Part shown: in pieces, positions 4,812-32,958 of the stretch
Numbering within the stretch: position 1 is the stretch's first letter
Layout of the letters: every line of letters starts with the position of its first letter
Origin: Acidobacteriota bacterium
Lineage (GTDB): Bacteria > Acidobacteriota > Terriglobia > Bryobacterales > Bryobacteraceae
Length of the DNA stretch: 35,235 nt
NCBI GenBank assembly: GCA_026394015.1
Contig: JAPKZA010000253.1
Coordinates: 22,605 to 57,839, forward strand
Direction of reading: 5' to 3'
Notes under the pieces: model-generated
Told to the model about the DNA's origin: nothing
What the model saw: the letters and a program-made list of their open reading frames with translations, nothing else
Databases searched by the model: none
Position numbers and translations under genes: made by a program

Positions 4812-6170
4812 CTAGTTCGTCAACTGCCGCCAGGCGTCGTCAAACAGCGCCTGCGCCGCCTCCGCCGTCCGTGCCTCCACCGCCAACCGCAGCAGCGGCT
4901 CCGTGTTCGAACTCCGTACATGCAGCCAGCGGTCCGCCCAGCTCAGCTTTAACCCATCCATCCGGTTCGTCTCCGCATCCGGAAAACCCTCTTCCAGACT
5001 CTGCATCAGAGTCCCCAACCGCCCGTGCTCAAACGCCACCTTCCCGCTCAATCGCGTATACCGCGGCAACTCCGCCACCAACTGCGACACCGTCTTCCCT
5101 GTCTCCGCCATCAAATCCAGCACCAGCGCCATCGCCGTATAGCTATCCCGACACAAATGCACCGCCGGATAGATAATCCCCCCCGACGAACCCTCCCCCC
5201 CGATCGCCGCTCCCACCGCCTGCATCATCTCCACCACGTTCGCCGCCCCCACCGGCGTCCGATAAACCTTCCGCCCATGCGCCATCGCAATGTCATCAAT
5301 CGCCGCCGATGTCGTCAAGTTCACGACCACATCCCCCGGCGTAAACGCCAGCGCCCGATGCACCGCCAACGCCAGCACATCGTCGTTGTCGAGCACCCGC
5401 CCCGTCTCATCGCACACCGCCAACCGGTCCCCGTCCGGGTCCTGCCCAAACCCCACGTCGGACCCGCTCCGCCGCACCAGCTCCGCCAACTCCGTCAACG
5501 TGTCCGGCCGCGGCTCCGCAATCCGCGGAAACACCTTCGTCGGGTCCACCGAAATCGCCTCCAACTGCGTCCCTAAAACGCCCTGCAAAAAACGAACCGA
5601 CAGCTCCGACCCCGCCCCGTTCACCCCATCCAAAGCCACCCGAAATCGCCGCCGCCGAATCGCGTCCGCATCCACCTTGCTCAACACCCGCGCCAGATGC
5701 AGCGCCGGCGCCGTCGTCAAATCCTGTCTTACCCCCCGAATCTCGTCGTTCCCCGCCCGCGCGAAATCGCTCTGATGAAACAGGTCCAGCAACTCGGTCC
5801 GCTCGTACTGGTTAAAAAACTGCCCCTCCCGGTTGAACAACTTCAGCGCGTTGTACTCCGGCGGATTGTGCGACGCCGTCAACGCCATCCCTCCCCGCGC
5901 CCGCGTATGCGCAATGTAAATCTGAATCGTCGGCGTCGGAATCACCCCCAGATCAATCACCTCGCACCCCGCCGCCAACAACCCGCAGTTCACCGCATGC
6001 GTCAACATCTCCCCCGACGTCCGCGTATCCCGCCCAATCACCACCCGGCCTTTCCCCACATACGTCCCAAACGCCTGCGCATAACTCGCCCCCAGCGCCG
6101 GCGTCAAAAACCCGCCAATCACCCCCCGCACCCCCGAAACCCCCACCTTCAGCAAATGTTGACGCGCCAT
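4812..6170 (-). CDS. Phosphoglucosamine mutase / phosphomannomutase family protein
   Basis: A complete 452-residue alpha-D-phosphohexomutase, interconverting sugar 1- and 6-phosphates in the cytoplasm for nucleotide-sugar synthesis. All four active-site elements are present: phosphoserine loop TASHNPPEYNALK with Ser100, metal loop DPDGDR at 244-249, sugar-binding loop GGEGSSGG at 324-331, and phosphate-binding loop RSSNTEP at 419-425. The loop composition (GEGSSGG, ASHNP) resembles bacterial GlmM-like enzymes, but I would not separate GlmM from ManB activity by eye. Its ATG overlaps the stop of the disrupted paralogue upstream by one base (TAATG), so translation was probably coupled to it. 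Confidence 0.92.
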   Translation of the reverse strand: MARQHLLKVGVSGVRGVIGGFLTPALGASYAQAFGTYVGKGRVVIGRDTRTSGEMLTHAVNCGLLAAGCEVIDLGVIPTPTIQIYIAHTRARGGMALTASHNPPEYNALKLFNREGQFFNQYERTELLDLFHQSDFARAGNDEIRGVRQDLTTAPALHLARVLSKVDADAIRRRRFRVALDGVNGAGSELSVRFLQGVLGTQLEAISVDPTKVFPRIAEPRPDTLTELAELVRRSGSDVGFGQDPDGDRLAVCDETGRVLDNDDVLALAVHRALAFTPGDVVVNLTTSAAIDDIAMAHGRKVYRTPVGAANVVEMMQAVGAAIGGEGSSGGIIYPAVHLCRDSYTAMALVLDLMAETGKTVSQLVAELPRYTRLSGKVAFEHGRLGTLMQSLEEGFPDAETNRMDGLKLSWADRWLHVRSSNTEPLLRLAVEARTAEAAQALFDDAWRQLTN

Positions 6171-7481
6171 TAGTTCAAGCTCCTTACCCGCTCCAGCAAG
6201 CTCTCAAACAGCTCCCGCGGTTCCGCCCCTCGCTGCTCCGCAATCACCCGAATAATCGGCTCCGTCTGGCTCACCCGGACATGGAACCAACGGTCCGGCC
6301 ACGAAACCCGCAGCCCGTCGCTCCGGTCCATCTGCCCATCCGGATACAGCCCCTGCAACTCAATCAGCAGCGCTGGAATATTCGAACTCGTCAGCGGAAT
6401 CTCGGCCTTCAGAATCTGGTGTCGCGGATAACCCGCCAAAATCTCGCTCACAGATTGCCCCCGCTGCCGCATCATCGTCAGAATCGCCAACATGCTCGCA
6501 ATCCCGTCGTAAACAAACCGGAACTGCGGCATCATCACCGCCCCCATCAATCGCCGCCTGCCGCCCCACCGGCACCCGCAACACCCGCCCCCCATGCCGC
6601 GCCACCACGTCCTCTAACAGCGCAGTACTCGACAAATTCGCAATCACCAACTTCCCCGCGCTCAACGGCAGCAAATGGTCCGCCAGCATCGGCAAAATCA
6701 GCTCCTCGCTGATCCCCCGCCCCTGCTCGTCCGCCAGCGCCACCCGGTCCGCGTCCATGTCAAACAGAAACCCCGCATCCGCCCCCAGCGGCTTCATCAA
6801 CGGCCCCAACTGCAACTCCACAATGCTCGCGCTCGTATTCGGCGTATGCGCCACCGTCCGCCCATCCACCCGTTCATTGATCAGAATGAAGCCACACCCA
6901 AACCGCTCATTCATCCGCCGCAAAATCAACGCGCTCGTCCCGTTGCAGCAATCCACCACCACCTTCAGCGGCCGCAACGACTCCAAATCAAACACCCGTG
7001 CAATTTCGTCCAGATACGCATCAATCGCCGTATCCACCACCTTCAATTTCCCCAACCGGTTCCATTCCTCATACCGGAACCGCCGCAGGTGGTAGATGTC
7101 CAGCAACTCCCCCGCCTCCGCCGTATTCAGATAGATCCCGCTCGGCCCAAAGAACCGCAGCGCATTCCAATCAATCGTGTTGTGCGACGCGCTAATCGCA
7201 ATGCCCCCCGCCGCGTCCAACCGCTGAATCGCGTGCTGCACCACCGGCGTCGACACCACCCCCAAATCGATCACGTCGTGCCCGCAACCCAGCAGCGACG
7301 CCACCACCCCTTCCCGAATCATGTTCCCGCTCAACCGCGGATCCCGACCCAGCACCACCGGTCGCCCCGGCTCCAAAAACGTCCCAAACGCCGCGGCAAA
7401 ATCCATCACATGGGTCGCCGTCAGCCCCTTCCCCACGATGCCGCGCAGACCAACGTGAGAGATCCGAAGTGCGCTATTCAC
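6170..7481 (-). pseudogene. Second phosphohexomutase, disrupted by an out-of-frame deletion
   Basis: Two overlapping frames together make one phosphohexomutase. The 5' part (GTG start at 7481) has the phosphoserine loop ASHNTIDWNALR, a metal loop DMDADR (Ala for the usual Gly), and runs to RVPVGRQAAID. The 3' part resumes at GAVMMPQF in another frame, contains RVSQTEP, and stops at 6170. Compared with the intact paralogue downstream, about 15 residues including the GGEG sugar-binding loop are missing at the junction (near 6550). A deletion of about 44 bases would explain both the missing loop and the frame change. The product cannot be a normal mutase. The start overlaps the upstream stop as GTGA. 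Confidence 0.85.
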
Positions 7482-8173
7482 TCGCCTACCAGTCTAATCT
7501 TCCCAAACGCTTCCGGCACGTGGTTGTTCAAAATCCCCGTCTTCTGCCAAACAATGTAGTTCCGCTTCGGCCCCGGACCCTGAATCCGAAATAGATTCAC
7601 CCGCATCTCGTTCCCCGCCTTCGCCGGCCGACTATCGAACGAAGCAATCGGAATCTTAAACTCGCCGTACCAAATCTTCTTGTCCCGATCCAGCCGAGCC
7701 TTCACCGTGAACCCGGAATTCCAATCCGCCCCGGCATTCGGCAGCGGCTTCTTCCGATCAATGTCCAAATCGATATACTCCCCCAACGGCGAAATCTGAT
7801 ACTCCCGATACTTCCAAATCGATTCAAAATCCGCCCCGATGAAAATCTCCGCCACGTCGTGGTCCCAAAGCTTCATCGTCTCTGCATTCGTCACCGGAGC
7901 CGAGTTCAAATGCAGCTCCTCAAACGGGCAGCTGAACAAAAAGTAGATATGGTCTTTCGTCCACCGAGACCGGATCTCCGTCCGATGCTTAGGCACCGGC
8001 TTGCCCCAGTGGTCACCCTCCGCCACCGCCGGAGCGATCTTCTTCCACTGCCCCACGCTCGGATCCGCCGACAAAGCGAACTCGCTCTTCGAGAACGTGC
8101 TCGTCATCAAGCCGCCATCGGCCGCCATCGCCGCCGACGCCAGCAGCAACCCCATCATTAGATTCGTTTTCAT
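7478..8173 (-). CDS. Secreted CBM9-like carbohydrate-binding family 9 protein
   Basis: A 231-residue protein with a clear signal peptide (MKTNLMMGLLLASAAMA, cleavage near residue 18). The remainder is a single beta-sandwich like the CBM9-like domain of Acidobacteriota and Bacteroidota, with W-K-K, SRWTKDHIYFLFSC, the D-V-A-E-IFI-GAD block and the EF-KIPIASF strand. Such domains bind sugars at the cell surface or in the periplasm; no catalytic module is attached. The ATG at 8173 overlaps the aminotransferase stop (ATGA), and its own stop overlaps the next GTG (GTGA), placing it inside a tightly coupled four-gene chain for sugar metabolism. Confidence 0.85.
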   Translation of the reverse strand: MKTNLMMGLLLASAAMAADGGLMTSTFSKSEFALSADPSVGQWKKIAPAVAEGDHWGKPVPKHRTEIRSRWTKDHIYFLFSCPFEELHLNSAPVTNAETMKLWDHDVAEIFIGADFESIWKYREYQISPLGEYIDLDIDRKKPLPNAGADWNSGFTVKARLDRDKKIWYGEFKIPIASFDSRPAKAGNEMRVNLFRIQGPGPKRNYIVWQKTGILNNHVPEAFGKIRLVGE

Positions 8174-9297
8174 TTGGATTCTCCCTGTAGTGTACGGCCT
8201 CGAACCACATCCGCAATGCGGGCCGTCATCGCCTCATCTCCCATCAACAACCGAAACGGCAGCCAAAACGCGTCCCGCACGCAAGCCTCGGCGTTCGGAC
8301 ACGGCAACACCCTGTGCGGCAACCCGCCCACATACATCGGGTTCTGATAAAGCGTGTGCGGATAAAACGGCGTCACCGGAATCCCACTCGCCTGCAGCCT
8401 CGCGCAAAACTCGTCCCGCGTCTCTCCAAGCTCTGCCGCGTCAATCCGCCCCAACAGCAGATACCAAGGGTTCCGATTCACCGCCGCCGGAACCTCCTGC
8501 CATCGAATTCCCGGCAGCCCTACCAAAATCGGCGAATTCCGCATCCGCCGTTCAATCTGCTCGTCCAGCCGTTCCAACTGCGCTAACAGAACCGCCGCAT
8601 GCAACGCCGACATCCGATAGTTATTCCCCGCCTCAAAATGGTGAAAGAACGAGTACCCCGGCCGCCGCCCCTGGTTCATAAAACTCCGCATCCGCTCGGC
8701 AAACGCGGCGTCATTCGTCGACACGATTCCCCCCTCCCCCGCCGTCATCACCTTGCCGTTTTGAAAGGAAAAGCTACTCGCCAGCCCAAACGAACCCGCC
8801 CGTTTCCCCTTCCACTCCGCCCCGTGCGCATGCGCCGCATCTTCCAGCAGCATCACCCCCGTCTCCGCCGCCAAAGCCATCAAAGCATCCATATCCGCCA
8901 ACGGCCCCCCGAAGTGGACCGCCATAATCGCCTTCGTCTTCGCCGTCACCGCCCGCCGAGCCTGCTCCGGGTCCATGTTGAACGAGTACGGTTCGATATC
9001 CACAAACACCGGCACCGCCCCCACCCGCGACACCGCCGAGGCCGTCGAAACGAACGAGACCGCCGGTACAATCACCTCATCGCCCGGCCCGATCCCCGCG
9101 GCCACCAGCATCATCTCCAACGTCACCGTCCCATTCACCGCCGCCACCCCATGCGCGCAATGCTGATAGGCAGCAAACTTCTGTTCAAACTCCCCGATCA
9201 TCGGGTTGAAGCCACCCCACTGCGGGCTCGCCAAAACTTGATCCAGCAGCTCGCGTTCTCGATCGGTCGACACGGGCCAGGACGGAAGATCTCTCAT
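8170..9297 (-). CDS. DegT/DnrJ/EryC1/StrS family aminotransferase
   Basis: A 375-residue fold-type I PLP enzyme of the sugar aminotransferase family, which transfers an amino group to keto-sugars bound to nucleotides. The PLP lysine is Lys182 in SFQNGKVMTAGEGG; Asp153 in LEDAAHAHGA would contact the pyridine nitrogen; the SFVSTASAV and N-G-T segments fit the cofactor phosphate site. Length is usual. It is the first gene of the minus-strand chain down to 4812. The divergent small gene begins 17 bases upstream, so the promoters of both must lie in or beyond the coding starts. The exact substrate cannot be told from sequence. Confidence 0.93.
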   Translation of the reverse strand: MRDLPSWPVSTDRERELLDQVLASPQWGGFNPMIGEFEQKFAAYQHCAHGVAAVNGTVTLEMMLVAAGIGPGDEVIVPAVSFVSTASAVSRVGAVPVFVDIEPYSFNMDPEQARRAVTAKTKAIMAVHFGGPLADMDALMALAAETGVMLLEDAAHAHGAEWKGKRAGSFGLASSFSFQNGKVMTAGEGGIVSTNDAAFAERMRSFMNQGRRPGYSFFHHFEAGNNYRMSALHAAVLLAQLERLDEQIERRMRNSPILVGLPGIRWQEVPAAVNRNPWYLLLGRIDAAELGETRDEFCARLQASGIPVTPFYPHTLYQNPMYVGGLPHRVLPCPNAEACVRDAFWLPFRLLMGDEAMTARIADVVRGRTLQGESK

Positions 9298-21641: not shown

Positions 21642-21808
21642 AGTACTATCCAACCTTCCGCACACCCCCTCCGGGCTGAGTCACCCCTCGCCTTGCCGTT
21701 TACGCCGCGAATCAATGCCTCATCACTGCCCTATCGCCTCCACCAAGTGGTGCCTCCAGTGCCATCTGTAGCCGCGGCCGTGTTACCTTGCTCTAGGGAG
21801 CCGTCGCT

Positions 21809-23074
21809 TTGAAAATAGCCGTTTGTGGCCTCTGGCATCTGGGCACCGTCACCGCGGCCTGCCTCGCCTCCGCCGGACATACAGTAGTGGGCCTGGATGA
21901 CGATCCAGCCTTAATCGATCAACTCTCGGCCGCCGTCCTACGGGTGGCCGAGCCCGGCCTCGCCGATCTCTCCGCCGCCCAGCTCGCCGCCGGCCGATTG
22001 CGCTTCTCGACCGACTTTGCCGAGACCGCCGACGTCGACCTCGTCTGGATCGCCTACGACACCCCCGTCGACGAAGCCGACCGCGCCGACACCCAATTCG
22101 TCCAGGACCGCGCCCTCCGCGCCATCGCCGCGATGCGACCCGGCGCAGTCCTCCTCGTCAGCTCCCAAATGCCCGTCGGCTCTGTCGCCCGCATCGCCGC
22201 CGCCGCCGATCGCCCCGATATCCACTACGCCTGCTCTCCGGAAAACCTCCGCCTCGGTAAAGCCATCAGCGTCTTCCTCCAGCCCGACCGCTTCGTCATC
22301 GGCGTCCGCAACCAAGCCACCCGCGACATCCTCACCGCCGTCTTCGCCCCCATCACCGACCGCCTCGAATGGATGTCCGTCGAATCCGCCGAGATGACCA
22401 AACACGCCATCAACGCCTTCCTCGCCACCTCCATCTGCTTCATCAACGAGATCGCGACTTTGTGCGAAAGCTCCGGTGCCGACGCCCTCGAAGTCGAGCG
22501 CGGCCTGAAGTCGGAGCAGCGCATCGGACCCCAATCCTACCTCCATGCCGGCGGCGCGTTTTCCGGCGGCACCCTCGCCCGCGATATCGCCTTTCTCCGC
22601 ACCCTCGCCACCCAAACCGGCGTCGGCATTCCCCTCGTCGAAGGCGTCTTTGCCAGCAACGAGTTTCACAAAACCTGGCTCCCGCGCTGCATCGCCGGGG
22701 TCTTCCCCTCGCTCGTCGGCCGCCGCGTCACCGTCCTCGGCCTCACGTACAAACCCGGCACCGACACCCTCCGCCGCTCCGCCGCCGTCGAAGCCGCCCA
22801 ATGGCTCCACGCCCAAGGCGCGGAAGTCCACGCCTTTGATCCTCAGGTCCACACCCTCCCACCCGGACTCGCCAGCCAAATCACCCTCCACGATTCGCTC
22901 GCCTCCGCCCTCGCCGATACCGAAGCCATGGTCGTCATGACCCCCTGGCCCGAGTTCCTCGTCATGGATCCCGCGCTCGCACCTTCGGTTGTCTTCGACG
23001 CCGCCCGGTTCCTCGAACCGGTGTTGCTCAGCCAACCCCGCCTACGTTATTTTTCCATTGGGAGAGCTCTTTGA
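21809..23074 (+). CDS. UDP-glucose/GDP-mannose dehydrogenase family protein lacking the catalytic Cys
   Basis: A 421-residue protein with the three-domain layout of nucleotide-sugar dehydrogenases: Rossmann start MKIAVCGLWHLG, YACSPENLRLGKAI near 140-153, Lys198 and Asn202 in EMTKHAINAFLA, and a C-terminal domain with LGLTYKPGTDTLRRS. In normal enzymes the loop GFGGSCFPKD carries the Cys that forms the thiohemiacetal. Here it is AFSGGTLARD, with Thr255 at that place. The protein may stop at the aldehyde, use another nucleophile, or do different chemistry. It starts at TTG 21809 with AGGGAG 9 bases upstream. Its stop overlaps the SDR start (TTGA). Confidence 0.9.
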   Translation: MKIAVCGLWHLGTVTAACLASAGHTVVGLDDDPALIDQLSAAVLRVAEPGLADLSAAQLAAGRLRFSTDFAETADVDLVWIAYDTPVDEADRADTQFVQDRALRAIAAMRPGAVLLVSSQMPVGSVARIAAAADRPDIHYACSPENLRLGKAISVFLQPDRFVIGVRNQATRDILTAVFAPITDRLEWMSVESAEMTKHAINAFLATSICFINEIATLCESSGADALEVERGLKSEQRIGPQSYLHAGGAFSGGTLARDIAFLRTLATQTGVGIPLVEGVFASNEFHKTWLPRCIAGVFPSLVGRRVTVLGLTYKPGTDTLRRSAAVEAAQWLHAQGAEVHAFDPQVHTLPPGLASQITLHDSLASALADTEAMVVMTPWPEFLVMDPALAPSVVFDAARFLEPVLLSQPRLRYFSIGRAL

Positions 23075-23934
23075 AACTGCAAGGGAAACGAGCCGTCGTC
23101 ACCGGCTCCAGCCAAGGCCTCGGCCTCGCCATCGCCCGCCAACTTTTGGCCGACGGAGCCAGCGTACTCATCTGTGCGCGCAGCGCAGCCGACCTCTCGG
23201 CCGCTCACGCCGACCTCAACGCGGCCTACCCCGGCCGAGTCTTCGCCGCCCCCTGCGATATCGCCCAGGAAGCCGCCGTCGAAGCCCTCGCCGCCAGCGC
23301 CTCGAGCCTTCTCGGCGGCGTCGATATCCTCGTCTGCAACGCCGGGGTCTACGGCCCGAAGGGCGCCATCGACTCGCTCGATTGGGGGGCCTGGGTATAC
23401 GCTTTGCAGGTGAATCTGATCGGCACCGTCTACTGTTGCAGGGTTTTCCTCCCCCTCCTCCGCCAAGCCAAGCGCGGCAAAGTTCTCATCATCTCCGGAG
23501 GCGGAGCGACCAAACCCCTACCCTTCCTCAGCGCCTACGCCGCGTCGAAAGCCGGAGTCGTCCGCTTCGCCGAAACCCTCGCCGAAGAGTTGAAAACCGA
23601 AGGCATCGACGTCAACGCTATCGCCCCCGGCGCGCTCAACACCCGCCTTCTCGACGAAGTCCTCGCCGCCGGACCGCAAATCTTCGGCGACGCCTTCTAC
23701 CAAGGATTGATCAAACAGCGCGATAACGGAGGCACCCCGTTATCCGTCGGGGCCGAACTCTGTTCTTACCTCGCCTCCGCCGAAAGTGACGGGGTGACCG
23801 GCAAGCTGATCAGCGCCCAGTGGGACCCCTGGCGCCGCATCGCCGACTTCCAGAACGAGCTGATGGCCAGCGACATCTGGACCCTGCGACGAATCATCCC
23901 CGCCGAGCGCGGCCAGGACTGGGACCAGTCCTAA
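23071..23934 (+). CDS. Short-chain dehydrogenase/reductase
   Basis: A 287-residue classical SDR: NAD(P)-binding TGSSQGLG at residues 11-18, CNAGVYG at 89-95, Ser142, and the Tyr156-x-x-x-Lys160 pair in AYAASKAG. A C-terminal extension (WDPWRRIADFQNEL, DIWTLRRI) resembles SDRs found with carbohydrate gene sets. It begins at TTG 23071, overlapping the previous stop as TTGA, with GGGAG 8 bases upstream. The strict coupling to a dehydrogenase homologue suggests both act on one sugar-like substrate; this is inference. The 3' end overlaps the convergent AAA ATPase by 4 bases. Confidence 0.93.
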   Translation: MKLQGKRAVVTGSSQGLGLAIARQLLADGASVLICARSAADLSAAHADLNAAYPGRVFAAPCDIAQEAAVEALAASASSLLGGVDILVCNAGVYGPKGAIDSLDWGAWVYALQVNLIGTVYCCRVFLPLLRQAKRGKVLIISGGGATKPLPFLSAYAASKAGVVRFAETLAEELKTEGIDVNAIAPGALNTRLLDEVLAAGPQIFGDAFYQGLIKQRDNGGTPLSVGAELCSYLASAESDGVTGKLISAQWDPWRRIADFQNELMASDIWTLRRIIPAERGQDWDQS

Positions 23935-25202
23935 CTCTTCGCAAAATAAAGCGCCGTCGCGCGCTCCAAATCCGGCTTCGTCATCTGAATCGTCCGGTTC
24001 TCATACTGCGAAATCGACGACAGAATATTGCAAATGTCGCTCGGGTAGCACGCCCGTAGCTCCGTCCGGCCCTCCCGCAGGCAAAGCTTGCGCAGGTACT
24101 CCGCGCTGTCGGCTTCGGTCGGAACCCGCCGACTCGCCACCACCCGATCAAAAATCTGATCGAACACTTGGCTCGTCACACTCTCCACATAAATCTTGTT
24201 CGGAATTCGTCGCAAAAACGCTTCATCCGCCAGATCGCTAGGATCCAGGTTCGTCGAAAAAACGACCAGAAGCTCAAACGGAATCTGGAACTTCACCCCA
24301 TACCGAAGCGTGAGGTAGTCAACCCGACGGTCCAGCGGGACGATCCAACGGTTCAGCAGGTCGCGAGGCGACATCAGCTGCCGACCAAAGTCGTCAACGA
24401 TGAACAAACCATTGTTCGCCTTCATCTGCAACGGAGCGGAGTAGATGCCACTCGCCTCGTCCAGGCGCAGTTCCAGCATGGAAGGGATCAATTCGCCACC
24501 GACCACAATGCAGGGACGGCGGCAGAGCACCCAACGCGGATCCATTTCACCGTCCTCGGTGTGGATCGCGTCATGCACGACCGGGTCGTAGATACTGATG
24601 ATCTGGTTATCCACTTCCACCGCGTACGGGATCATCACCGCATCCTGGTAAACGCGGAGCATCCGTTCGGCGATGCTGGTCTTGCCGTTTCCGGACGGAC
24701 CATAGATGAAAATCGAGCTTTGGGCGATCAGCGCCGGGCCCAGTTGGTCCAGCAACCGGTCCGGAACCACCAGATCGCCGAAGGCACCCCGCAGAGCGCG
24801 ACGGTCGATCTGAATCTTGGCCGCCTGCGCCCGAACCGCCGCGTGATAGTCGGACAACGAGACCGGGCAAGCGCCCGCGTACTGGCTGATTTGGAAGCGT
24901 TCGGTCGCGGTTTGCCGACCCGCCGCGGACAGGACAAAATTGTAGTCGTTACCCGTCATGCCCTTCACTTCCACCATCTGCTGGGAGCGCATGTGGCGGA
25001 AAATGTGGTCAATAATCGGGATCGAAACCCGCAGCTTTTGCGCCATCGACGAAAGACTGGTCGTCCCTTCCAGCATCAGCCGCCGAAGGACGAGGTCGAG
25101 AACCAGGTTCTCCCGAATCCCCAACGCAGCGAAATTTGTCGGGGTCGGTGGAGCGAAGCCCGTAGGCACAGCCGCACCCGTGGAAAGCGGTTGCATCGAC
25201 AT
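23931..25202 (-). CDS. AAA-type ATPase with N-terminal winged-helix-like domain
   Basis: A 423-residue cytoplasmic ATPase. Residues about 30-100 look like a winged-helix domain (LDLVLRRLMLEGTTSLSSMAQKL, then a helix and wing ending in NFVLSAAG). The ATPase part has Walker A GPSGNGKT at 168-175, Walker B LFIVDD at 266-271 and a sensor-like FSTNLDP. It is of the kind often annotated simply as ATP-binding protein in Acidobacteriota and found near pilus or secretion genes. The start at 25202 (or the ATG two codons later) abuts the divergent secretin frame. Codon and base use are less C-skewed than in neighbouring genes. Confidence 0.82.
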   Translation of the reverse strand: MSMQPLSTGAAVPTGFAPPTPTNFAALGIRENLVLDLVLRRLMLEGTTSLSSMAQKLRVSIPIIDHIFRHMRSQQMVEVKGMTGNDYNFVLSAAGRQTATERFQISQYAGACPVSLSDYHAAVRAQAAKIQIDRRALRGAFGDLVVPDRLLDQLGPALIAQSSIFIYGPSGNGKTSIAERMLRVYQDAVMIPYAVEVDNQIISIYDPVVHDAIHTEDGEMDPRWVLCRRPCIVVGGELIPSMLELRLDEASGIYSAPLQMKANNGLFIVDDFGRQLMSPRDLLNRWIVPLDRRVDYLTLRYGVKFQIPFELLVVFSTNLDPSDLADEAFLRRIPNKIYVESVTSQVFDQIFDRVVASRRVPTEADSAEYLRKLCLREGRTELRACYPSDICNILSSISQYENRTIQMTKPDLERATALYFAKS

Positions 25203-25281
25203 GTACCAAATCTATCGGGCCTCGCGAACAGAAACTTTAGTCCACGAAATACGCATCGATCGCGTCAGTAACTATTTGGCC

Positions 25282-26862
25282 GTGCTGCGTTTACTTTTAG
25301 TCGCGTTGAGTCTGGCCCTCGGAGGGTTATCCGCCGAGGAATCCGCCCGCAGTTTTGGCCGACGCGCCGCCCAGGCGGAGAAGGCCGGCCACATCGCCGA
25401 GGCGATCTTACTCTACAACCAAGCCAGCGCGAAAGCCCCCCGCAATCCCACCTACGCGTTCAAGAGCCGGAGCCTCACCGATAAAGCCCTGCGCCAGAAC
25501 CTGGCCCCCGCCTCAGTAGAACAAACCCCGCCCCCGCCAGCTACCAACAGCGTCATCCTCGATAAAGACCTGCGCGAGGCAGAATCCTTTCGCCCCCCTC
25601 CCGAGCTAGCGTTTGGCCCGGGCCCGTTCTCCTTCCGCCTCCGCGGCGAGCCACGCGAGGTCATCGAGAAAGCCGCGCGGGCTTTAGGAATCGAGGTGCA
25701 GTTCGATAATGATTTCCCCACCGGCGCGGCGGCGGTCCGTTTTGAACTCGCCGACGCATCCGGAGTCGAAGCGATTGAAGCCTTAGGTGCCGCCACTGGA
25801 ACCTTCTTTGTCTCCCTCCAGCCCAAACGGATGATGGTCGCTAAGGACACTGCCCAGAAGCGGCAGGAGTTCGAACCCAACGTCGCCGTGATCCTCTCCC
25901 TACCCGAACCAACATCGGTTCAGGAAATCCAGGAATTGGGGCGCGCGGTGCAGCAGACGATGGAGCTGCAAAAGTTCTCCATCGACAACGGACGGCGCCT
26001 CGTGCTCATCCGCGACAAAATCTCCAAAGTCCGCCCCGCCCAGCAGATGTTCGAACAGATGATGGGAGCCCGACCAGCCGTCGCCATTGAGATCGAAGTG
26101 TACGAACTGCGGCGCAACCGCACCCTCGCCGCCGGGCTCCGCCTGCCCACCTCCACCGAGCTATTCGCCTTAGCGCGCAACCCCATCACCGGGGCCGACG
26201 TCCGGCTCCCCGCCCTGCCCCTCTCCTCCGCGCGCATCGGGACGCCACAATTGGGCATCACCCTCGGAGACGCCCAGCTTGTGGCCAGCCTCTTAAACAC
26301 CCTCGGCAGTCGAGTCCAGCGCGCCGAAATCCGCACCATGCACGGCATGCCCGCCCAGTTCGTCGTCGGCGAGCGCTATCCCATCCTCACCGCCGGCTTC
26401 TTCGGCGGAAATGCCAGCCCCGACGGCACCACCTATCGCCCCCCCCCGACGTTCCAATTCGAGAACCTCGGACTCACCTTGAAAGCCACCCCTTACACCC
26501 ATTCGATCAACGAAATGACCGTCGAGATCGAAGCCGAATTCAAGGTACTCACCGGAGCCCAAATCAACGGCATCCCCATTCTCGCCAACCGAAAGTTCAA
26601 CTCCACCGTCCGCCTCACGAACGGCGAATGGGCCATGATGGCCGGCGTCGGCAGCTCCAGCCAAACGTTGACCAAAGCCGGCCCGGCTGGCCTCATTCAG
26701 ATCCCCTGGATCGGAGCGCTCTTCCGCCGAAATGCCGTCGAACTCGACGAGTCCGAAACCATCGTCATGCTCCGGCCCCGCGCCCTCGCCCTACCCCCGT
26801 CCGAAGTGGTCACCCATGCCATCCGCCTCGGCAGCGAAACCCATCCCCGCATCCCCCACTAA
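25282..26862 (+). CDS. Secretin-domain outer-membrane protein (type II/IV pilus/Tad type)
   Basis: About 526 residues. After a signal-like stretch (LLLVALSLALGG) comes a TPR-like helical piece (SFGRRAAQAEKAGHIAEAILLYNQA), a short secretin N-domain (about 125-250), and the C-terminal secretin domain with EIEVYELRRN, VGERYPILTAGFFGG, LTNGEWAMMAGV and GLIQIPWIGALFRR. Secretins form outer-membrane gates for type II/III secretion or type IV pili. The start is uncertain: GTG 25282 (used), TTG 25276, or ATG 25201, which would share CATG with the divergent ATPase but put 27 extra residues before the signal peptide. The stop overlaps that of the convergent aspartate kinase. Confidence 0.87.
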   Translation: MLRLLLVALSLALGGLSAEESARSFGRRAAQAEKAGHIAEAILLYNQASAKAPRNPTYAFKSRSLTDKALRQNLAPASVEQTPPPPATNSVILDKDLREAESFRPPPELAFGPGPFSFRLRGEPREVIEKAARALGIEVQFDNDFPTGAAAVRFELADASGVEAIEALGAATGTFFVSLQPKRMMVAKDTAQKRQEFEPNVAVILSLPEPTSVQEIQELGRAVQQTMELQKFSIDNGRRLVLIRDKISKVRPAQQMFEQMMGARPAVAIEIEVYELRRNRTLAAGLRLPTSTELFALARNPITGADVRLPALPLSSARIGTPQLGITLGDAQLVASLLNTLGSRVQRAEIRTMHGMPAQFVVGERYPILTAGFFGGNASPDGTTYRPPPTFQFENLGLTLKATPYTHSINEMTVEIEAEFKVLTGAQINGIPILANRKFNSTVRLTNGEWAMMAGVGSSSQTLTKAGPAGLIQIPWIGALFRRNAVELDESETIVMLRPRALALPPSEVVTHAIRLGSETHPRIPH

Positions 26863-31381: not shown

Positions 31382-32638
31382 TCATCGCGTCGCCCCCGTT
31401 CTTCGCGAGTTCTCTCCCGTGGCCCCGATCCTGCCCGCAATCTCCTTCGTGGATTTCGCGGTCACGCCCGCCGCCGCGGCATGTTGCCGCCAACGGGAAA
31501 CGGCCTCTTGTACCTTCGCCAAAATGCCCGGAGCGTTCTTTAGAATATGTTCCTTACCCAGCGCCTTCAGTTGCTCAACGCCGGGATTCCTTCCTTCGCC
31601 CATCACCATCGAACTCTGCTCCCCGCCGGGACCGTCCGAGAACGTCAGGTCGTACGCCGGAGCAAACGCCCACGCAACGGCGTCATACAACACGAAAGAA
31701 AAATTCTTGGCATGATCATCACGATTGTGCGCCAGCACATTAAAACACGCCAAAGCGTAGGCCTTTTCCACCTCCGCGATGTTCTTCGTCAACACCCAAA
31801 CCACCCGCAAGATAAGGTTGTAGTCAAGGGCGGGGACGCGGTGATCAGCATGAATCAAGCCAGACAGACTGTGCATGTGGATGCGTTGGCCGCCCCGCCG
31901 GTCAAAACGCTTCACCCCGAAATAACCGCGCTTTCGAGTCCGAAAAAGATGGGTCTCCGGAACTTCTACTCCGGCCTCCCTTGCCATCAGGCTGTAAGCG
32001 TACTCGATCGGGCCGATGTCACGCGGATCCTGCGATGAGCCAAACTTGATCATCCAGTGCTCGAAGCCGGGTCTCAGGTCCGAATGTCCGTGAACAATCC
32101 GTGCCTTGTTGGCACTCACCTGAGCCACAATCTTCGGCCGCGCGCCCGCCGATGAGCCGTTGAGCCGCAGCAGGTCTTCAAAGACATCTTCGGTCTCCCC
32201 AGCCAGCACGATCGCCGATTCCTCGGCCAGCCGGTCGAGCGCCAGCGGCGCGTCATCGCCAGCCTCAAGGCTCCGGTCTGGTTCATAGCTCAACGCGCCC
32301 ATGCCGCTCCGGCCCACATAGGCCAAGCGATCCAAGGCGTTCAACTGGCCCCGGCGGACCCCATGCTTCTCGACGGTTCGTTCCAGCAGCAGACGTCCCC
32401 ATCCATCCGGCAGGCTGTCATTGAAGACACCATGGAGACCGTCGAAGATCGTGTCCGGGGCGGTGAACACGCCCGCCTGCAGGGGTAATTGAAACGGTGA
32501 AATCTCGAAGCCGGAGGCAAGAAACCCGGGGTCGTATTCGAACAGGATCCGCCGCTGCCGGAGCGCCAGACGCCCCACCTTCCGGCGCTCCCCGGCCTCC
32601 CAGTAGACGCTTAGCAGATCGGTTGCGGAAAACGTCAC
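31382..32638 (-). CDS. hipA: HipA-type serine/threonine kinase toxin
   Basis: A 418-residue HipA-family kinase. HipA of E. coli phosphorylates glutamyl-tRNA synthetase and arrests growth. An N-terminal domain (VGRLAL, FEYDPGFLASGFEISPFQLPL, FNDSLPDGWG at 72-81) precedes the P-loop-like GSSAGARPK at 161-169, the catalytic HNRDDHAKN with Asp307, and YDLTFSDG with Asp330. All kinase elements are present, so the toxin looks functional. The Arg/Thr-rich C-terminal end is not conserved. The GTG start at 32638 overlaps the hipB stop as GTGA. Confidence 0.93.
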   Translation of the reverse strand: MTFSATDLLSVYWEAGERRKVGRLALRQRRILFEYDPGFLASGFEISPFQLPLQAGVFTAPDTIFDGLHGVFNDSLPDGWGRLLLERTVEKHGVRRGQLNALDRLAYVGRSGMGALSYEPDRSLEAGDDAPLALDRLAEESAIVLAGETEDVFEDLLRLNGSSAGARPKIVAQVSANKARIVHGHSDLRPGFEHWMIKFGSSQDPRDIGPIEYAYSLMAREAGVEVPETHLFRTRKRGYFGVKRFDRRGGQRIHMHSLSGLIHADHRVPALDYNLILRVVWVLTKNIAEVEKAYALACFNVLAHNRDDHAKNFSFVLYDAVAWAFAPAYDLTFSDGPGGEQSSMVMGEGRNPGVEQLKALGKEHILKNAPGILAKVQEAVSRWRQHAAAAGVTAKSTKEIAGRIGATGENSRRTGATR

Positions 32639-32958
32639 TTGATCCGTCCCTTCTGGCGAACCTTCGGCTCTCGCAGGATCTCGTCGAGCGATTTCCTGCC
32701 CAAGCCGGGTCCGTCATCGGCGGCCACCCGGTCGAAATCTCTCAGGCAACCCAGAACCAGCGCCAGCCTGAGCAACGCCTCCAGCGCAATCAAGCCGGTG
32801 TGTTCAAACCGCTTGAGCGAGCTCCAACTCACTCCCGCTCGCGCCGCCAGCCCCTCTTGCGTCAGGTTCAAGGCCAAACGCCGCGTCTTGAAACGCCTAG
32901 CCAAATCACGCTGCAATTCCCGGGGTGTCCGCAGCTCAAAAGACATCCTATTGTCCAC
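32635..32958 (-). CDS. hipB: HipB-type HTH antitoxin/repressor
   Basis: A 107-residue XRE-family protein with a helix-turn-helix in LNLTQEGLAARAGVSWSSLKRFEHTG (about 29-56), followed by helices that would dimerise and bind HipA. The start is GTG 32958, with GGAGCGAGA directly upstream; an ATG four codons later is less well placed. It is coupled to hipA by a 4-base overlap. An 11-base direct repeat covers its start and the region upstream and may be its operator. Confidence 0.9.
   Translation of the reverse strand: MDNRMSFELRTPRELQRDLARRFKTRRLALNLTQEGLAARAGVSWSSLKRFEHTGLIALEALLRLALVLGCLRDFDRVAADDGPGLGRKSLDEILREPKVRQKGRIK

Follow-up and report, generated by a model that had tools for sequence, protein, structure and literature searches.

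Threonine in place of the catalytic cysteine marks a family of nucleotide-sugar dehydrogenases paired with a short-chain dehydrogenase/reductase in octose-type gene clusters

The locus studied here has its closest described relatives in two systems, the UDP-glucose dehydrogenases (UGDs) and the octose enzymes of lincosamide producers. According to PMC3184952, Asp280 of the human UGD (UGDH) is the predicted acid/base taking the proton of the C6 hydroxyl in the first oxidation, Cys276 forms a thiohemiacetal, and Thr131 coordinates, together with Asp280, the movements of NAD and of the catalytic water; in the same text, the C276S mutant accumulates a covalent adduct, while the C276A mutant leaves the reaction from UDP-glucose incomplete, yet still oxidises added aldehyde. 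For BceC, the titles under which the structures 2y0c, 2y0d and 2y0e are deposited in the PDB suggest that Tyr10 is linked to the last step of catalysis by UGD. As for the lincosamides, the octose genes of the lmb and ccb clusters include, in PMC4351081, R (transaldolase), N (isomerase), P (kinase), K (phosphatase), O (guanylyltransferase), M (epimerase), L (dehydrogenase), Z (oxidoreductase) and S (aminotransferase), and according to a 2025 review (PMC12945683), LmbM, LmbL, CcbZ and CcbS convert GDP-octose to GDP-lincosamide. Here, we analyse a nucleotide-sugar dehydrogenase (NSD) and the short-chain dehydrogenase/reductase (SDR) encoded immediately after it in a stretch of 35,235 nucleotides from an Acidobacteriota bacterium (GCA_026394015.1, contig JAPKZA010000253.1, positions 22,605 to 57,839; hereafter the window). 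The NSD has threonine where UGDs have their catalytic cysteine, and its active-site residues, its clade, its conserved pairing with the SDR and the octose-type gene set around its relatives are observed directly. On these grounds, we consider it probable that the NSD is an LmbL-type enzyme oxidising the secondary C6 alcohol of a nucleoside-diphosphate (NDP) octose to a ketone, and that the SDR probably reduces that ketone.

The first-pass annotation of this DNA had read Thr255 in place of the catalytic cysteine in the loop AFSGGTLARD and had placed the start of the SDR on the same TTGA as the end of the NSD, and both readings were borne out. Two full-length open reading frames (ORFs) on the plus strand were confirmed (Table 1), with the TTGA common to both (the sister locus L004 has the same 4-base overlap), and Thr255 was verified in the translation, in the alignment to BceC (2y0e), where it falls on the loop cysteine, and in the loop rows described below. 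All three UDPG/MGDP domains (Pfam UDPG_MGDP_dh) were found in the NSD, which scores above the cut-off of TIGR03026 (nucleotide sugar dehydrogenase; 276.6 vs. 189.8 bits) but does not reach the cut-offs of the equivalog models for UGDs, AglM and ManNAc dehydrogenases (TuaD: 244.3 for a cut-off of 700; AglM: 225.2 for 670; lower for the rest). An identity as UDP-ManNAc dehydrogenase was considered as well, but the equivalog scores are far under their cut-offs. The AF2 model of the NSD (43 sequences) has a mean pLDDT of 95.1, and UGDs are the closest solved structures to it (3gg2, Z 41.6 over 409 residues at 35%; 2y0e, Z 40.6).

The threonine is a family trait. Two peptide patterns that do not cover the Thr loop matched 64 loci when 84,980 species genomes were scanned, and threonine occupies the loop in every one of them, as well as in the window and in a second copy from the same genome, that is, in 66 of the 67 loop rows, the 67th (L006) being an ordinary cysteine enzyme. 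This rules out a sequencing error, a chance loss of the cysteine or a pseudogene. Judging from the record titles, the 64 scan loci represent 17 named phyla of bacteria and two of archaea, and for two of the loci the titles give no phylum name; since many of these loci come from metagenome-assembled genomes (MAGs), odd single placements, above all those in archaea, may be binning errors. The two clusters on contigs labelled as Nitrosopumilaceae and Nanoarchaeota MAGs (L063 and L076) reflect either a transfer to archaea or mis-binning. Among the window's own genome and 60 relatives, four genomes have a match with an E-value of 1e-60 or better; in three of them it belongs to the Thr family (the window's genome G000 and the same-genus genomes G014 and G002), and in the fourth (G057) it is a cysteine enzyme; both sister genomes, G014 and G002, also have the loop threonine and the SDR. 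The G002 gene (L014/L005, contig C64) is peculiar in that about 35 residues after GGTLA, including Asp259, are missing in frame, next to an intact SDR. Phage records gave only UGD-like matches, at 27–32% identity.

A joint residue table and tree were computed from 46 of the 70 Thr-type loci (45 alignment rows, to which the L139 protein was added as far as it can be read), together with 49 rows of the Cys type and a single Asn row. Residue 255 is threonine in 46/46 family rows and cysteine in 49/49 comparison rows, residue 120 is glutamine (46/46) vs. threonine (49/49), residue 10 histidine (46/46) vs. tyrosine (48) or phenylalanine (1), and residue 258 arginine (46/46) vs. lysine (46), valine (2) or isoleucine (1). 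Likewise, over the same 46 and 49 rows, tryptophan stands against glycine at residue 9, asparagine against phenylalanine (45) or arginine (4) at residue 146, and leucine against glutamate (46) or proline (3) at residue 149, so that at none of these positions do the residues of the Thr and Cys rows overlap. Conversely, Glu145, Lys198, Asn202 and Asp259 are present in all 95 rows of both types. The fixation of Gln120 is partly selected, because one of the two search patterns spans its motif, while Thr255 and His10 lie outside both. In the tree, inferred with a quick method, the 46 Thr rows and the Asn row form a single clade, with the Cys rows apart (SH-aLRT 99). Another variant devoid of the cysteine is an NSD from a Skermanella genome (L099, G066:C1:218890-220023), which has asparagine at that place (GLAGGNIERD), shares His10, Gln120 and Arg258 with the Thr family and lies 11 kb from the Thr-type NSD of the same genome.

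Compared to Cys-type UGDs (BceC, TuaD and human UGDH), the window NSD thus keeps the three-domain fold and the four residues common to all rows, but differs by Cys to Thr, Thr to Gln, Tyr to His, mostly Lys to Arg, Phe146 to Asn and Glu149 to Leu and, unlike known UGDs, falls under the UGD equivalog cut-offs. His10 aligns with the residue mutated in BceC Y10K. Given the roles of the human residues and the BceC titles, the alignment suggests that the residues kept are the set for the first hydride transfer, and those changed largely the set for the second half-reaction. The first-pass annotation had not expected acid formation without the cysteine, and ordinary acid formation is indeed unlikely, since the loss of the cysteine is fixed in the clade and coupled with other active-site changes. 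Alternatively, the NSD might still catalyse both steps, Thr255 acting as an oxygen nucleophile (an ester for the thioester) in the making of a uronic acid, while the SDR acts elsewhere. The adduct of human C276S would show that an oxygen nucleophile can attack (PMC3184952), but that adduct stalls, the equivalents of Thr131 and Tyr10 are replaced too, the gene context is of the octose type and a secondary C6 alcohol yields no acid, all of which makes a threonine nucleophile highly improbable.

This gene context was established by clustering 969 ORFs around 66 loci, which gave nine families, each found in 27 to 56 loci. Named from the NCBIfam and Pfam matches of one cluster (L031), these are, in their typical order: NAD-epimerase, NSD, SDR, Gfo/Idh, HddA-like GHMP kinase, nucleotidyltransferase, GmhA-like SIS, GmhB-like HAD phosphatase and a transaldolase of 238 aa. 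Among the 64 scan loci, 29 have room on both sides (at least 5 kb upstream and at least 8 kb downstream); with profile thresholds set by hand, all nine genes occur in 21 of these, the transaldolase in 26, and the kinase and Gfo/Idh each in all 29. The L031 transaldolase passes TIGR02134 (315.2 vs. 281.95 bits), and glycosyltransferase-like genes lie near several loci. According to its annotation, plasmid 3 of Lawsonia intracellularis (L107) carries SIS, HAD, transaldolase, lysylphosphatidylglycerol-synthase-like, nucleotide sugar dehydrogenase, SDR, Gfo/Idh, galactokinase and nucleotidyltransferase genes, whereas no epimerase was found in the L107 stretch; its record gives pig as the source.

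Four of the L031 genes (isomerase, kinase, phosphatase and nucleotidyltransferase) match models of the GDP-D-glycero-D-manno-heptose pathway (GmhA, HddA, GmhB and HddC), and the C6 alcohol of a heptose is secondary too, so that LmbL-type C6 chemistry on an NDP-heptose, with the SDR setting the C6 stereochemistry, has to be weighed as well, the more so as 3 of the 29 loci with room lack the transaldolase. However, all four models remain under their cut-offs in L031, the cluster adds the transaldolase, the NSD, the SDR and Gfo/Idh to the heptose pathway, and a transaldolase, found in the great majority of the loci with room, is not needed to make heptose from sedoheptulose 7-phosphate. Moreover, by BLASTP, the epimerase, NSD and Gfo/Idh match M, L and Z of the lincosamide cluster. 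We therefore regard a heptose substrate as unlikely.

As a set, the cluster genes correspond to lmbR, N, K, P, O, M, L and Z, with the NSD as L (after PMC4351081 and PMC12945683). Using the kinase, not the NSD, as the query, we searched 392 Streptomyces-genus genomes drawn from a larger group (the genus being judged from chaplin genes), of which four matched. One of them (G580, L156/L157) holds a lincosamide-like set, while the other three show no NSD match within the 18 to 20 kb read. G580 has the octose genes R, S, O, P, Z, N, M, L and K, along with TldD/PmbA-like, N-methyltransferase-like, adenylation, mycothiol-amidase-like, salicyl-AMP-ligase-like and salicylate-synthase-like genes; the names of these non-octose genes and the label “celesticetin-type” come from translations read against the published lmb/ccb gene table. 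Its NSD has the GLWHLG motif and the loop GAAFSGSTLQRD, with threonine at the place of the cysteine, this being the one lincosamide-type cluster for which threonine in the lincosamide enzyme is documented. It is 39% identical to the window NSD over 423 columns, and eight of the nine G580 octose proteins are the best BLASTP partners of eight proteins of the G014 cluster (L008), at 31–46% identity. The G580 LmbL/CcbL homologue and the window NSD thus have in common the UGD fold family, the clade, the loop threonine, GLWHLG and, for the NSD family, the neighbours R, N, K, P, O, M and Z; in contrast with the LmbL/CcbL clusters, an SDR instead of the LmbS aminotransferase stands beside the NSD, and related loci have glycosyltransferase-like rather than antibiotic genes.

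In the G580 cluster, no partner SDR was detected by the profile used, while a DegT-like aminotransferase is present. Similarly, the actinomycete G242 has eight octose genes and a gene whose translation reads as an IlvE-like aminotransferase; a partner SDR passing the threshold is missing there, the one SDR scoring 75 bits. Hence, the Thr loop goes with the octose set, and the SDR stands where these two clusters have the aminotransferase, L072, which has both, being an exception. In G242 (L139/L145, contig C38), the Thr-loop NSD and the octose set also adjoin genes whose translations read as an IlvE-type aminotransferase, methyltransferases, LuxC/LuxE and a luciferase-like monooxygenase, perhaps for an octose natural product that has not been described. 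When the window and the scan loci are taken together (66 loci), four have a match to the celesticetin-type aminotransferase (window: 161 bits; L070: 60; L071: 137; L072: 305). The combination expected of lincosamide biosynthesis, i.e., LmbS and condensation genes together with the octose genes, was not found in these loci, an amino-acid condensation gene being absent from the nine named neighbour families (rarer families were named in part). Among the literature matches listed, mostly outside subscription papers, no paper deals with this cluster beyond the lincosamides.

With the same hand-set thresholds, the partner SDR follows the NSD directly on the same strand in 59 of 70 loci, which answers positively the question, raised in the first-pass annotation, of whether this neighbour is conserved, and it lies within 1.5 kb in 62 of 70. 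Where a scan locus extends 1 kb or more downstream (62 loci), the SDR is found somewhere in it in 58 cases. Around 50 other NSDs used as controls (49 Cys, one Asn), neither the SDR nor seven other cluster genes reached threshold within the available flanks (mostly 1.5 kb for the Cys-type loci, the majority of which belong to Actinomycetes and to ten genomes also carrying a Thr-type gene); matches below the thresholds went up to 152 bits for the epimerase, 140 for Gfo/Idh and 74 for the SDR. Over 44 SDR rows, Asn115, Tyr156, Lys160 and Arg37 are invariant (44/44) and Ser142 nearly so (43/44). The window SDR shares these elements (TGxxxGxG, the Asn-Ser-Tyr-Lys tetrad and Arg37) with classical SDR ketoreductases (FabG/gluconate 5-dehydrogenase-like) but, unlike FabG-type enzymes, its subfamily has its own SGGGA, WDxW and LRR motifs (42–44 of 44 rows where counted), and among the matches listed (25 of 230), no NCBIfam model reached its cut-off. 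In SDRs, an arginine at the position of Arg37 denotes a preference for NADP(H), which, judging from the residue, is more in keeping with the reduction of a ketone than with the oxidation of an aldehyde.

At face value, the missing cysteine and the conserved SDR would also fit an NSD that takes a UDP-hexose no further than the C6 aldehyde, the SDR oxidising or otherwise processing that aldehyde, so that two enzymes replace the four-electron oxidation performed by one. Yet, the neighbours are the genes by which lincosamide producers build an octose and activate it, the celesticetin-type cluster has the Thr loop but no partner SDR, the arginine of NADP(H)-type enzymes is found in all SDR rows and, to our knowledge, no classical SDR is an aldehyde-to-acid enzyme. 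On the other side, the incomplete reaction of human C276A from UDP-glucose indicates that an enzyme without the cysteine may stall after the first step (PMC3184952). Nothing in the gene context and residues examined points to a UDP-hexose substrate. Altogether, such an aldehyde relay appears improbable, and two-enzyme formation of a uronic acid was set aside on the octose gene context as the principal interpretation. The first interpretation of the pair is therefore partly supported: the loss of the cysteine and the conserved pairing hold, whereas the replacement of a UDP-sugar oxidation to the acid is not supported, owing to the octose-type neighbours, the secondary C6 alcohol and the Thr-type loci without SDR (celesticetin-type and 4/62).

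Returning to the C6-ketone chemistry that we favour, we infer the substrate, the site of oxidation, the dehydration, the reduction, the product and a role in surface glycans as follows. The substrate would be an NDP-activated octose (a C8 aldose) rather than a hexose, in which C6 is a secondary alcohol bearing C7 and C8. With NAD+ and Asp259, Lys198, Asn202 and Glu145, the NSD would remove the C6 hydride to give a 6-ketone. As oxidation of a secondary alcohol ends at the ketone and no acid is possible, the cysteine would not be needed, and the thiohemiacetal/thioester cysteine and the residues of the second half-reaction could have been replaced (Thr255, Gln120, His10) for this very reason. 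By analogy with LmbL, the 6-ketone would probably permit the hydroxyl at C8 to leave and the hydride to be given back, leading to a 6-keto-8-deoxy octose. The overlapping NADPH-type SDR would then probably reduce the ketone, in place of the aminotransferase LmbS, and the resulting sugar nucleotide would go to a surface glycan.

Several points weigh against this reading. First, the LmbL step, which we take to be a 6,8-dehydration, is a weak point: if it is so, NAD+ would here be a returned cofactor and the product a 6-keto-8-deoxy octose. A 2020 study of LmbM, LmbL, CcbZ and CcbS is said to assign 6-epimerisation, 6,8-dehydration, 4-epimerisation and 6-transamination to the four enzymes. Second, the comparison is with the celesticetin-type homologue, not with the LmbL sequence of S. 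lincolnensis, and this homologue sits on a long branch of the quick tree, in which the Thr rows by themselves need two changes, the Asn row falling among them. Third, human C276A still oxidises aldehyde, and thus the absence of the cysteine does not by itself exclude a second oxidation. Fourth, L023, L060 and L073 lack the transaldolase, SIS and HAD nearby, so that an octose is not shown for each cluster, and the L031 nucleotidyltransferase matches MurU (UDP) more strongly than HddC (GDP). Fifth, the SDR is absent from L043, L051, L062 and L070 (4 of the 62 loci with room), meaning that it is not required for NSD function, and L072 has both the SDR and a DegT aminotransferase (the 305-bit match above). 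Finally, the window holds only the NSD/SDR pair, the other octose genes of its genome lying on other contigs.

The window is part of contig C54 of G000, a MAG of 7.9 Mb in 574 contigs, whereas in the sister G014 the pair and the octose genes stand together in one cluster. Contig C169 of G000 carries orthologues of the G014 kinase and transaldolase (69 and 75%), as well as SIS and HAD, but there (L146, 6830-7762 and 5153-5874), Gfo/Idh is split into four ORFs and the nucleotidyltransferase into two, which also counts against our reading; these broken genes, beside an intact kinase, SIS, HAD and transaldolase, are due to decay or assembly errors. Epimerase copies are on C148 and C289. The second copy of the pair, on C148 (L007, 6780 bases), has an NSD 52% identical to that of the window, with the loop threonine and an SDR, and the contig also carries the epimerase, Gfo/Idh and glycosyltransferase-like pieces. 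Its GC content is 0.525, vs. about 0.61 for the window's contig, and its tetranucleotide correlation 0.81, close to the lowest value for stretches of the window itself (0.82), so that the profile is not clearly different; C148 may be foreign DNA, a stray contig or an older second copy. The isolation of the window pair, the company of the C148 copy and the broken genes of C169 might mean that the pair in the window is a remnant, cut off from its cluster or in decay, the intact pathway being that of C148, an idea compatible with any of the other readings. Nevertheless, the two window ORFs have their full length and every family residue, C148 may be foreign on account of its GC content (even if its tetranucleotide correlation comes near the window minimum) and the frame breaks may be MAG errors, which leaves a remnant rather unlikely.

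The features of the window are collected in Table 1. The DegT/DnrJ aminotransferase could act on other keto sugars. The AAA_16-like and secretin ORFs overlap by 245 bases on opposite strands, and one of the two starts is probably set too early.

Table 1. Positions of the gene pair, of its functional residues and of other features in the window.
Feature	Position	Strand	Remarks
Nucleotide-sugar dehydrogenase (NSD), Thr for catalytic Cys, probably LmbL-type	21809-23074	+	421 aa, TTG start
AGGGAG ahead of the NSD TTG start	21795-21800		
NSD loop AFSGGTLARD, residues 250-259	22556-22585	+	codons: Thr255 22571-22573, Arg258 22580-22582, Asp259 22583-22585
His10 in GLWHLG of NSD	21836-21838	+	joint alignment
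Gln120 in SSQMPVG of NSD	22166-22168	+	Thr in Cys-type; human Thr131
Glu145 of NSD	22241-22243	+	kept (human Glu161)
Lys198 and Asn202 of NSD	22400-22414	+	22400-22402 and 22412-22414; kept (human Lys220, Asn224)
GGGAGAG, likely ribosome-binding site of SDR	23060-23066	+	
TTGA overlap, NSD stop/SDR start	23071-23074	+	
Short-chain dehydrogenase/reductase (SDR)	23071-23934	+	287 aa, TTG start; Asn115, Ser142, Tyr156, Lys160, Arg37
Two phosphoglucomutase/phosphomannomutase genes	4815-6170, 6363-7481	-	at least 12 kb upstream of NSD
DegT/DnrJ aminotransferase	8173-9297	-	12.5 kb upstream of NSD, opposite strand; 161 bits to celesticetin-type aminotransferase
ORF with weak AAA_16 match	23931-25202	-	under cut-off
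Secretin-domain ORF	24958-26862	+	
HipA-like kinase gene	31385-32638	-	PF07804, PF13657
Small ORF overlapping the HipA-like gene upstream	32635-32958	-	in the place of the HipB antitoxin

Beyond the window, the GLWHLG, SSQxPVG and GGTLARD motifs would provide a sequence marker separating C6-ketone-forming enzymes from look-alikes among the nucleotide sugar and UDP-glucose dehydrogenases, the current label “nucleotide sugar dehydrogenase”, as in the Lawsonia plasmid record, hiding a probable octose-type role. The gene sets point to eight-carbon aldoses in many bacterial phyla, through a pathway that has until now been described chiefly for antibiotics of the lincomycin type. More tentatively, and with somewhat less confidence than in the opposite, we propose a widespread pathway that has not been described, in which many bacterial phyla and two archaeal MAGs may use the lincosamide gene set to produce an NDP-octose, leave the last step to an SDR rather than to an aminotransferase, and so equip their surface glycans with an 8-deoxy octose, a hydroxy analogue of the sugar in lincosamides. 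The Cys-to-Thr NSD would be the marker of this pathway. If so, lincosamide producers may have taken over an older glycan pathway, which would suggest an origin for the sugar pathway of the lincosamide antibiotics.

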